In this document: positions 12,140 through 40,464 of the stretch, piece after piece | Layout: every line of letters starts with the position of its first letter | Position numbering within the stretch: the first letter of the stretch is position 1 | Source of the DNA: Ascidia mentula | Lineage: Eukaryota > Chordata > Ascidiacea > Phlebobranchia > Ascidiidae | DNA: 64,000 bases | NCBI GenBank assembly: GCA_947561715.1 | Contig: OX387197.1 | Location: forward strand, 191,001 to 255,000 | Reading direction: 5' to 3' | Translations under genes and position numbers: made by a program | The notes under the pieces: generated by a model | Told to the model about the DNA's origin: nothing | Seen by the model: the letters and a program-made list of their open reading frames with translations, nothing else | The model's database searches: none

Positions 12140-15100
12140 ATGATATCTCGGCTGTGTGTTGTATGTTTGCTTGTAACATGTTTTGTCGACAAGATTTCAA
12201 CGCAACAAGAACTCAACAACCAACAAGGTGAGGATGAAATAAGTGTTGAATTGTTGCGTGAAATTATACCGCGGTATCGTGTTGCTAATGTCTGTTTGTA
12301 AATTCTCTTTGTTTGAACGAAAACAATGTAACCAGAGGTTGGTTATTAACCAGTGGTTGGTTATTAACCAGTGGTTGGTCACTAACCACACAAAACATTT
12401 ATTCAACCATTCCTCAAATCGTGAACTAATGAACAGTTGAATTCATGTTTGATAATTTTCACAACTAAGAATTTATTTTGATAAAAGTTTTGATGCTGTC
12501 GCTACGGATGTTTGTCCCTGATAATCTGGATTTAAACAAAAAGATCACATGAGGCTTGAGGCGGTGTGAACATAATTACCAAAGTTTACAAAAGACCGAA
12601 CGTCAGACCAACACGAAAAACTTGTTCCAAACCAACAATTAAAGGATTAGAAAGACGAAGTTTTACAAAAAGCGGAAAACAAACTTCTCCCGTCGCAAAC
12701 GTTTTTCGTCACACCGATTCGTCCGATTCTCACATACGCGTTTGATCGATTGTTACGACATAGTTAGAGTTAAATAGTGGTAGAATTTGACAGTTATTGA
12801 GGCAGGTTTCGCGTTTATATCGAACGCGAGATGCTAGGGCGGAAATTGGGAGGTAATAAGGCGGTGCAAGGTAACTTGGAGCCACTCGCCTTGGGGCAAA
12901 ACTCCCTCGGATATTTTCAACCTTGCCGTCGCTGACCACACGGGAGGGGGGGGACCTTCCCATACTTTCTGATACCGACCGTTCATCACAATGTTATATC
13001 TCAAACTTTCAGTAAATATTCCCCGCTCTCATCTGATGTGTACTTAACTTTACGTAACGACCCATGTAAGTTACCGACACAAACCACAACAGATTAATGA
13101 TTAAACTTGGAAAGTTGCACCCATTGTTGTGAAACCGAATAACCGTTCTACGGCCAATTGTGACGTTGTGTTTCATTATGATTTTTGTTTTGGGAAAAAT
13201 TATATTTTTTTGTGAAATATTCTAGAATGTATTGACGGGCCAAGCACGTGGTACACCGGGACGAGGAACGTGACGTCATCAGGGATTACATGTCAGCGAT
13301 GGGACGTCAACTATCCCCAAAAACCGAAGCAAACCCCCAGAGATGGGGGCCATCATAACTTCTGCCGGTGAGAGGGGATATTTTCACAACGATTCATTTG
13401 TTGAAATTTCCACTGGAATGTTTTGTTTCTGTGGAGAAACCGTGTTTGTTCTCTTCAGCATAATCCGGTGCTTTCCGAACAATTAACTCGCTGCTTGCTA
13501 CTGAATAACAAGCACGACATTCGTGTGACCTTGTAATCACTTCAACTATGCACGTGCTTGTTTTAATATGCACCCTGCAATACATGTTGTTTATTCCTAG
13601 GAACCCTGACGGCGACCTCCGGGGAACTTGGTGTTACACAACCGACCCAACGAAGCGATGGGAGTACTGTAACATCACAAAGTGTCGTAAGTTTACATGA
13701 AGTAGTTTGGGAAAAGTATAAATTATGCTGGGCTGATATCTCACATAGCTGCACGAACATTTTGTCACTGAAAACATTTTCTTGCCTCCATCAGCTGTAA
13801 GTATTGATTGAACGAGAATCGTATGTCATATGTCAATGGCCGCCATTTTGAATATGGTTCACATCATGATGTAAATTTCGTTTCCATTTCAACATTTTCA
13901 AAGCAGGCACCTGGTAAAATACAACCACGCCCAAACCTCACGAACACGCATCAGCGCAAAGGTTTTCATGCGCAAAGAAACGTGCTTTTCACCAAGAATA
14001 ATCCGGGTTAATTGTGCGTTACGCGACATGCGTTACGCGACGTGTCGCCACATTTCCGTGTCCGCGCACTTTTGTCGATTTAATCACAACCTATTGTCGA
14101 ATACCTCCGCGGTCCAGCATTGTCTCCTACAAATCATTTCACTGGCAAAACAATGTCTGCTGTGACGTAAACACTGACGTATGTTAACAGCTGATGATTC
14201 GATCGTGGTTTGGACGAACCATGATTCGAAGAATGGGGGTGCTCACATCCTTTCAGTGAAAGCCGACCCCGAGATCGTGAAGCAACAAACCGACACAGCG
14301 GGAATCTTCAACGTGGCTGTATTGGTCGCATCGAACCAAACTAAGACGGAATTCTGGGCTCTTACAGCTGATTACAACCGACAGATGATTTTCTTTACAG
14401 ATTATATGTGAGTTAAACACAGCAGTCTGGAACATATTTGTTCGATTCTCATTAATTGCTTCTTCCTGGTAATTGTGGAAACCACAACTTTAATGTCGTT
14501 ACTGCGAAACGATTATTATTTTGTCACTGACATGCATTTATACGTCATAATGAACAAACGCTTCCACATGTCTCTTTGTCAGTTTTCTATAACTAAAAGT
14601 TGCGTAAACCCTCAAATAATCCGTACATCCAATCAATGAACGACACGTCATCACAAATTCGCTCTCACCTCAGGTCTGAGTACATCGGAGTGAGATATCT
14701 TGAGCACGGTCTTACCGTCCAGTACTTAAGTGGAATGGCGCATGGCATTGAGAATATGGCTTACGATTGGAGGACTGGGAACTTATACTGGACCGACTCG
14801 GAGTTCAAATGGATCATGGCCGTCGACCGAACTTTCACCTTCTACACACCAGTGTATCGCACTAACGGGGATCCACCCTACGCCATCGCACTCCATGCCA
14901 AACAAAGGTAAAACGCCCTCTCGTGGCCCGATGTGTCAACTTTGTGTTTCAAGCGGTGTCGAAGCATTCATGTTTTGTCGAAATAACTTTCGAAAGTATT
15001 TCCTGACGAGTTTTCCGATGAAATAAAGAGGGAGAAAAGTTCAATTATTTTATTTCCAAAATTGCAGAAAACTATTTTTCTCGATTTACCAAACAACCGG

Positions 15101-39900: not shown

Positions 39901-40464
39901 TTTTGATGCTGAAGGAAGTTCCACATTTCCCTGCTTAAATAAATTCCCATAACCTTCAATTGACGCAGAAGTAATTCCATGCTTACGCATAGCAAGGCGT
40001 GATCGCCCCACTGCGCAGGCCCTTTATATTTGGCGATCACACCTCTAATATTCTGATCATAAGGTTCACAGGCTTCGCAGTCAAGGCATTGCAGCCAAGC
40101 TGGATCAGCCACTTTCCCGACAAGTCGGAGCGAGATCTGAAAAATCAAACTCCCGGTGAGGTGCCTTGGCTGCGAAGCCTGTGAACCTTCAATTGACTGA
40201 TGAAAATGTCGGAAGTGACTTAATTCGCTGTAGCGACACATCTGTATTCATTCAATCGTTGCATTTGTCCGCCTTGCTCAAAAAGACAACCAAAAACTTA
40301 AATTAAAATATTCCCTTTACCCCCCAACCTCTAACCAAGAGGCACGTGACCCAACCAAATACTAATAGAAATCTAATTCCACAGTTAACATGAATCAGTG
40401 TGAAAACTGCCAAGGAGTCTGCGTTCCATTCTCCTTCTATATATCCTCATGCTTGGAACTATGA
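33905..40464 (+). CDS. Receptor C: secreted kringle, two YWTD propellers
   Basis: Third paralogue. Exons: 33905-33962, 35730-35877, 35932-36017, 36078-36303, 37068-37301, 37428-37568, 37631-37754, 37814-37979, 38065-38205, 38501-38629, 38689-38778, 38837-38962, 39026-39182, 39240-39373, 39501-39645, 39714-39859 and 40385-40464, giving 776 residues. Signal peptide [16 protein letters not shown]; kringle (CQRW, HSYCRNPD, GLWCYT); first propeller to about 394; EGF 395-441; an extra EGF 442-484 not found in A or B; second propeller 485-750; then a shortened EGF-like end ([13 protein letters not shown]) and TGA. There is no HYR, CCP, stalk or membrane helix, so the product should be secreted. Several introns are only 54-70 bases. 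A SINE lies just before the last exon. AATAAA follows at 40557-40562. Confidence 0.88.
38313..38500. repeat. 47-bp tandem repeat carrying a splice acceptor
   Basis: Four copies (38313-38359, 38360-38406, 38407-38453, 38454-38500). Each ends in TTTAATTCTTGCAG, and the last forms the acceptor of the extra EGF exon at 38501. The first copy is slightly diverged. Use of an upstream copy would bring an in-frame TAA within a few codons (ETNPIKMPI then stop). Confidence 0.93.
39970..40190 (-). mobile_element. Composite SINE, copy 2 (partial)
   Basis: Shares GATCGCCCCACTGCGCAGG, GCAGCCAAGCTGGATCAGCC and CCGACAAGTCGGAGCGAG (as read on +) with the other copies but ends near the start of the tRNA-like part. 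It lies in the last intron of receptor C (39860-40384), just before the exon that ends the protein early. Confidence 0.65.

Follow-up and report, generated by a model that had tools for sequence, protein, structure and literature searches.

How does a kringle of the plasminogen type come to stand at the head of a receptor built like those of the LDL receptor family? The question is raised by a stretch of 64,000 nucleotides from the ascidian Ascidia mentula (GenBank assembly GCA_947561715.1, contig OX387197.1, positions 191,001 to 255,000 of the forward strand; hereafter the window), in which a cluster of three neighbouring genes on the same strand, running from an ATG at 12140 to a stop at 40464 (positions within the window, equal to the limits given in an initial annotation of this DNA), encodes proteins with a kringle placed before two LRP-type propellers. 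The answer that we favour, and to which, taken as a whole, we give a probability of about 0.5, is that a receptor without a kringle gained one through exon shuffling, that the resulting gene was then copied in tandem to make three, and that the products may serve in the capture and uptake of lysine-bearing ligands, according to the working model discussed below.

As to the genes themselves, the exon chains were assembled by hand from GT-AG sites, reading the whole 64-kilobase (kb) window. In these models gene 1 (12140-20332, plus strand) consists of 22 exons encoding 1070 amino acids (aa), gene 2 (23494-30639, plus strand) of 22 exons encoding 1100 aa, and gene 3 (33905-40464, plus strand) of 17 exons encoding 776 aa. 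That all 58 introns (21, 21, and 16) are of the GT-AG type is no evidence by itself, since this was the rule by which they were selected; the evidence for the models is the single open frame without internal stops in each gene, along with the agreement of phases. Exon phases match one for one across the three genes, barring one additional EGF exon (38501-38629) and the terminal exon of gene 3, and length differences between corresponding exons are multiples of three, the terminal exon of gene 3 again being the exception. The kringle is encoded by a pair of exons (142 and 86 nucleotides in genes 1 and 2, 148 and 86 nucleotides in gene 3), both outer sides being in phase 1 and the inner split in phase 2, within the Arg codon that follows HNFC (genes 1 and 2) or HSYC (gene 3) and precedes NPD. 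The exon models bear out what the initial annotation had described, three same-strand neighbours with a kringle split at the same site and with matching exon order and phases, save for the terminal exon of gene 3. Chance or an annotation artefact was considered and ruled out, since each gene retains a single open frame across the selected GT-AG exons and the phases match from gene to gene. A separate kringle gene was considered as well, and the models, built on genomic DNA, require no break between the kringle and the propeller. We regard the module architecture, as modelled, as close to certain.

The four domains named in the initial annotation fared unequally in Pfam. Kringle is called in all three proteins (E 6.5e-19, 9e-18, and 1.5e-18 for genes 1, 2, and 3), Ldl_recept_b clears the cut-off in genes 1 and 2 but falls short of it in gene 3 (16.3 versus 21 bits), HYR is above the cut-off in genes 1 and 2 (E 8.1e-8 and 3.3e-5), and Sushi is called in none of the three, the label “sushi-like” being derived from the cysteine pattern and from a homologous exon of a related locus, L021 (Pfam E 0.0093, below the cut-off). 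The EGF modules give weak Pfam matches, also below the cut-off. Profiles of the two propeller-EGF units match chains of LRP2, LRP4, LRP6, and LDLR, with LRP2 the best, at whole-chain E values, each summed over several stretches, as low as 9.4e-89 (propeller 1 with EGF) and 5.6e-95 (propeller 2 with EGF), and the EGF-flanked YWTD propeller characteristic of the LDL receptor family is found in the cluster, the count of six blades being assumed and the propellers of gene 3 being assigned by profile match. The statement that two propellers and EGF modules are common to all three genes holds in the models and profiles; at the Pfam cut-off it does not extend to the EGF modules or to Ldl_recept_b in gene 3.

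In gene 1, an exon for a signal peptide (12140-12227, hydrophobic N-terminus in the model, phase 1 at its end) is followed by the kringle (13226-13686; exons 13226-13367 and 13601-13686, phase 1 on entry and exit), a first propeller (14191-15735, exons 4 to 8, by model and profile search), an EGF-like module (15883-16011, by model, with Pfam FXa_inhibition below the cut-off), a second propeller (16205-18058, exons 10 to 15, by Ldl_recept_b and profile search), a second EGF-like module (18490-18627, by cysteine pattern), an HYR module of two exons (18810-19236), the sushi-like module (19435-19665), and a Thr-rich stalk with a transmembrane helix (19749-20083, by model and hydrophobicity). Two candidate last exons, each in frame with the transmembrane exon, are present in the model, one (A) at 20212-20332 with the tail end NHYSVM and one (B) at 20746-20857 with the tail end NPYSVMS, and they look like a duplicated tail exon, alternatively used. 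An intron of gene 1 contains a minisatellite (18115-18438) of 19 copies of an 18-nucleotide unit. The order is the same in gene 2: signal-peptide exon (23494-23554, by model), kringle (23792-24323; exons 23792-23933 and 24238-24323), propeller 1 (24612-26164, by model and profile search), EGF-like module 1 (26223-26348, by cysteine pattern), propeller 2 (26408-28104, by model and profile search), EGF-like module 2 (28367-28510, by cysteine pattern), HYR (28689-29160), sushi-like module (29475-29699, by model), stalk and transmembrane helix (29897-30390, by model and hydrophobicity), and a modelled last exon (30519-30639) with the tail end HHYSVL, followed by AATAAA at 30881. Genes 1 and 2 each possess one strong transmembrane segment near the C-terminus, with tails ending in YSVM, YSVMS, or YSVL, and their predicted products are single-pass surface receptors.

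Gene 3 starts likewise, with a modelled signal-peptide exon (33905-33962), a kringle (35730-36017; exons 35730-35877 and 35932-36017), and a propeller (36078-37979, by model and profile search), followed by two EGF-like modules (38065-38629, by cysteine pattern), the second of which is the extra exon, and by a second propeller (38689-39859, by model and profile search). A tandem repeat of 4.2 copies of a 47-nucleotide unit (38313-38509) lies before the extra EGF exon and reaches into its start, every unit ending in the splice-acceptor-like TTGCAG. Gene 3 is without the HYR and sushi modules, the stalk, the helix, and the tail; its modelled last exon (40385-40464) encodes a truncated EGF-like end and a stop, with AATAAA at 40557, 93 nucleotides past the stop, and as no transmembrane segment is present, the product looks to be secreted. 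The equivalence of the three genes that had been implied thus applies to the kringle-propeller-EGF-propeller part and not to what follows it. Gene 3 could instead be a copy in decay, not a gene for a functional secreted protein, a reading consistent with its truncated final EGF and with the lack of any remnant of the HYR, sushi, or tail parts at E 1 in 39.9-64 kb, in a search that recovered a control stretch of gene 2. A dispersed repeat within its last intron (40001-40162) is consistent with decay as well; other copies are found at 33175-33492 and 44568-45045, flanking the gene, and at several other loci, and the repeat may be connected with the loss of the 3' part. Decay nonetheless appears improbable, as the 17 exons give one open frame, the kringle is complete with its binding residues, and the polyadenylation-type AATAAA follows closely.

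Is the body of these receptors specific to the cluster? The propeller 1 of gene 1 has 20 matches in the genome, 17 of them in the cluster and one each at three other loci (L019, L020, and L021), where the order of modules is as in the cluster, by tblastn and by eye. L021 could be fully modelled (19 exons, 1008 aa) and encodes a signal peptide, propeller, EGF, propeller, EGF, HYR, a weak sushi, and a transmembrane helix, but no kringle; Pfam recognizes six propeller repeats, EGF, HYR, and a weak sushi, and the phases of the first-propeller exons resemble those of the cluster. The kringle exon pair of the cluster occupies the site of what is, after the signal-peptide exon of L021, a plain phase-1 intron. 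In L020, the model of which is usable for the first four exons, a 67-nucleotide signal-peptide exon, by eye, ends in phase 1, as in L021, and is followed by a phase-1 exon without a kringle; the HYR exon of this locus is below the Pfam cut-off (15.7 bits). L019, which continues in L045, has a Thr-rich stretch ahead of the first propeller, where the cluster has the kringle, and an HYR exon, in the L045 part, just below the cut-off (20.8 versus 21.7 bits). A tail motif, WK/WS/WR...D.V.L, is common to L019, L020, and genes 1 and 2.

As to the absence of kringles, a kringle profile hidden Markov model (HMM), run at maximum sensitivity over nine loci (L019-L021 and L042-L047), found nothing better than E 0.23; its control on the window was not independent, because the three cluster kringles were among its seeds. 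When the HMM was rebuilt from eight plasminogen and HGF seeds only, the best E value in the same nine loci was 0.21, and six of six half-kringles of the window were recovered at E 1.6e-9 or better. The first HMM gave one additional weak match in the window (21257-21475, E 0.012). By module order and shared phases, genes 1 and 2 agree with this double-propeller HYR family in full, and gene 3 agrees up to its second propeller. Overall, the receptor body is that of a broader family, at least three members of which are found at other places in the genome and have no kringle, and it is probably older than the kringle-bearing variant.

Whether kringle and propeller meet anywhere else was addressed over the same genome (195.8 Mb, 79 contigs), the match lists representing lower bounds. 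Among at least 58 kringle matches and at least 46 propeller matches (40 for Ldl_recept_b, and six of the 20 from the search with the propeller 1 of gene 1), five kringle matches lie within 200 kb of any propeller match, all of them in the cluster, and no further kringle-propeller gene is seen among the matches listed. The Pfam Ldl_recept_b scan of the genome lists none of the propeller exons of the window, and so diverged kringle-propeller genes could be missed by it. As far as seen, the kringle-first variant appears confined to the cluster within the Ascidia mentula genome, and the suggestion of the initial annotation, that the family may be undescribed, is to be narrowed to this variant, the receptor body being shared with the three kringle-less loci. 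HYR has four matches in the genome, including one each in gene 1 and L021. A larger LRP-like locus (L042 and L043, C70:14124500-14140000) has an HYR module by Pfam (E 1.8e-11), along with many propeller-like exons, further cysteine-rich modules, and a long tail, and another locus (L044, C67) has two exons in Pfam, sushi above the cut-off and HYR below; no kringle was found at either locus by the kringle HMM searches. One unusual locus (L022, C73:10166500-10171000) encodes six kringles in one open frame of 1843 aa, with no introns interrupting them.

The phylogenies point in the same direction. In a propeller tree (231 columns of propeller and EGF, six rows, midpoint root) a branch supported at 95/94 sets the three kringle genes apart from the other rows. 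In a tree of 29 kringles (three from the cluster, 20 others from the genome, four of the five of plasminogen, and two of the four of HGF) the cluster kringles group together (90/87), as sisters to two kringles of another locus, L035 (83/80); their identities with the gene 1 kringle are 76 and 70%, the former value exceeding that for the gene 2 kringle (68%). L035 (C73:3205500-3214500) contains same-strand exons for CUB (Pfam E 3.3e-6 and 2.1e-6), which likely form one predicted gene with the kringle exons, and has no propeller match within its 9 kb. The tandem duplication claimed in the initial annotation is supported by the shared order, phases, and position, and by the grouping in both trees. 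Because the kringle is a 1-1 exon module, close relatives lack it, the cluster forms a group, and its kringles are akin to those of L035, a single insertion into the first intron, followed by tandem duplication, has the best support, and it is very likely that the kringle was inserted before the duplication. The older receptor would have consisted of signal peptide, propeller, EGF, propeller, EGF, HYR, sushi-like module, and transmembrane helix; a symmetrical 1-1 exon pair of the plasminogen type would have entered the phase-1 intron that lay downstream of the signal-peptide exon and upstream of the first propeller exon; the kringle-bearing gene would then have been copied in tandem, and gene 3 would have dropped the part from HYR to the tail, to become secreted.

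We infer a gain of the kringle rather than a loss. The opposite direction, in which the common ancestor of all the double-propeller genes already had the kringle and L019, L020, and L021 lost it, finds room in trees that are rooted only by midpoint; it would, however, require from one to three losses in place of one gain, the closest outside kringles compared adjoin CUB exons, and the inserted exons form a clean 1-1 module, all of which makes an ancestral kringle quite improbable.

What has been maintained since the duplication? Between genes 1 and 2 and between genes 2 and 3, the kringle shows the highest conservation of all modules (68 and 61% identity, respectively), and at 62% it is level with the first EGF module between genes 1 and 3, the respective values being 51, 37, and 37% across the three pairs for propeller 1 and 33, 29, and 24% for propeller 2. 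As the kringle has a nonsynonymous divergence (dN) of 0.25-0.36 while its synonymous sites are saturated or nearly so, it looks to be held by selection and not homogenized by recent conversion. Such a pattern bears on another possible function, adhesion or self/non-self recognition on blood cells or eggs, through kringle, HYR, and sushi-like surfaces and without endocytosis. A mosaic ectodomain on a Thr-rich stalk and one soluble copy would suit such a role, and so would the position of the least similar modules of genes 1 and 2 (sushi 29%, EGF 2 30%, propeller 2 33%) in the membrane-near half. However, HYR, likewise membrane-near, is at 46%, and an N-terminal kringle under purifying selection between paralogues is the opposite of what is usual for a recognition face, and we consider recognition unlikely, if deserving of attention.

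A role for the kringle in binding lysine is suggested by its residues. The pattern applied (Asp55, Asp57, Trp62, aromatic 64, Arg/Lys71, aromatic 72), in which we take Trp62 and position 64 to be lysine-site residues, is passed by human plasminogen K1 and K4 and failed by K2, K3, and K5. These core residues are kept in three of the three cluster kringles, versus five of 37 other kringles compared in the genome, a set that excludes duplicates, halves represented by the N-terminal exon only, weak additional copies at L022, L039, and L041, and three matches of the genome search (C72:12153304, C2:10831969, and C69:7570763), and that includes at least two kringles (L027 and L025b) cut by an exon end and unable to pass. 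The accessible part of one study lists Asp55, Asp57, Arg35, Arg71, and Tyr72 as the lysine-site residues of plasminogen K1 (PMC9736318). In the working model, which remains tentative, the N-terminal kringle with its lysine-binding groove would capture ligands bearing an exposed or C-terminal lysine, the propellers would provide the main protein contact, the YxxPhi tails (YSVM or YSVL) would drive clathrin-mediated uptake, and the secreted product of gene 3 would act as a soluble competitor or bridging factor. The type of ligand, the uptake, and the role of gene 3 are what we infer from these modules. A more specific form of the model, a tunicate-specific uptake system in which the added lysine-binding kringle gave an LRP-type receptor a new target, for clearing or sensing proteolysed proteins with new C-terminal lysines, its response tuned by the secreted sister and the two alternative tails, is rather doubtful.

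Several observations weigh against the favoured account. As to its evolutionary part, the bootstrap of the kringle tree is not fully settled, both trees have few rows and no outgroup, and midpoint rooting of the propeller tree leaves some small probability to a kringle loss in the relatives. The trees also conflict, genes 2 and 3 pairing in the kringle tree (86/39) and genes 1 and 3 in the propeller tree (89/86), and so imply different orders of duplication inside the cluster. As to the lysine site, the pattern was written after the sequences were seen; the at least two kringles cut by exon ends count among its failures; three of the five outside kringles that pass (L035a, L035b, and L004) belong to the same short-loop group as the cluster, and so the trait may be inherited and not selected for binding; and the loop near Arg35 lacks four residues relative to plasminogen K1 (in gene 1, and by alignment in genes 2 and 3), which may leave only half of the cationic centre. 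As to the uptake, YxxPhi is a short and common motif, and none is present in the tails of L019 and L020. The missing Pfam call for sushi in all three proteins belongs here too.

In our reading, this genome documents exon shuffling in a chordate relative with rare completeness, since kringle-free and kringle-bearing forms of the receptor, together with close kin of the kringle beside other modules, have all survived in it, and since the 1-1 phase module can still be made out. Should the kringles bind lysine, a plasminogen-type site would have been re-used outside proteases; in the activator table of a survey of the plasminogen-activator group of proteases, only the HABP2 type is given for its two urochordates (PMC6337849).

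Around the cluster, BACK/kelch exons are found at 85-3495 (plus strand), an F-box gene at 48993-50450 (minus strand), and actin-related exons at 52401-54390 (minus strand). At about 40850-46000 (minus strand), exons resemble, by eye, a single-pass membrane gene of the immunoglobulin type, with 39-nucleotide (13-aa) repeats in the tail; when two of these exons were run against Pfam, one gave only matches to membrane segments of viral families and the other none. Elsewhere in the genome, two separate loci (L049-L051) each have a cellulose-synthase-type GT2 and a same-strand GH6 domain no more than a few kb apart, and the combination of cellulose synthase and GH6 marks tunicates.

How, finally, do these genes compare with known systems? 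The likeness to LRP2, LRP4, and LRP6 is in the repeated order of YWTD propeller and EGF and, for genes 1 and 2, in the single-pass membrane protein; the cluster differs in having two propellers, a kringle in front, and HYR and sushi-like modules behind, in lacking LDLa repeats (no Pfam match in the three proteins at E up to 1, with HMMER filters on), and in lacking NPxY, in place of which genes 1 and 2 have YxxPhi in their tails. LRP5/6 possess four propellers and PPPSPxS tail motifs; the cluster proteins, with two propellers and short tails in which no PPPSP-type motif was seen by eye, do not belong with them. The likeness to plasminogen and HGF is in the full cysteine pattern of the kringle and in the core lysine-binding residues of plasminogen K1 and K4; unlike these proteins, the cluster proteins have no trypsin-type domain by Pfam, have a single kringle with a shortened loop, and have this kringle joined to propellers.

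Kremen1/2 are comparable as kringle-bearing receptors that work with LRP6, and this invites the idea that the cluster proteins are modulators of the Wnt pathway, with the two halves of a Kremen-LRP6 pair, kringle and YWTD propellers, fused in one chain to regulate Wnt or Dickkopf, and with gene 3 as a secreted antagonist. The propeller profiles do match LRP6 (best E about 2e-26 and 1.5e-37), and Kremen1, in the accessible text of one study, has a kringle and is tied to a ternary complex that includes LRP6 and Dickkopf (PMC5014086). On the other hand, LRP2 and LRP4 outscore LRP6, the kringle is plasminogen-like, the propellers are two and not four, the tails are as described above, and in place of the kringle-WSC-CUB order of Kremen1, the three proteins have no Pfam match to WSC or CUB. 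With no Kremen chain among the best 60 of 86 PDB kringle matches either, membership in the form of a Kremen-LRP6 fusion was rejected, and a Wnt-modulating function has very little chance of being correct.

In the literature, no description of a kringle directly before LRP-type propellers was found in open-access titles and starts of abstracts among the matches listed, a weak negative, since most subscription journals are outside this set and gene models are not papers. In the accessible parts of the respective papers, only LRP2, LRP4, LRP6, and SorLA are given for Ciona intestinalis (PMC10339998), and a combination of kringle and Ldl_recept_b is not shown (PMC3927612, PMC11788884); none of the words searched for is present in the main text of a further paper (PMC12549020).

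Further close parallels are in the same genome. L019-L021 have the same module order, with exon phases shared by L021 and a similar tail motif in L019 and L020; all of them differ in having no kringle, with the Thr-rich stretch in its place in L019, and L021 has a longer and different tail. L035 has the nearest of the outside kringles compared, with the same split and the same short loop, and differs in its same-strand CUB exons and in having no propeller match. In conclusion, the cluster is a new combination of known modules, arrived at via exon shuffling and tandem duplication, and not a new kind of system; what is new is the kringle-bearing variant.

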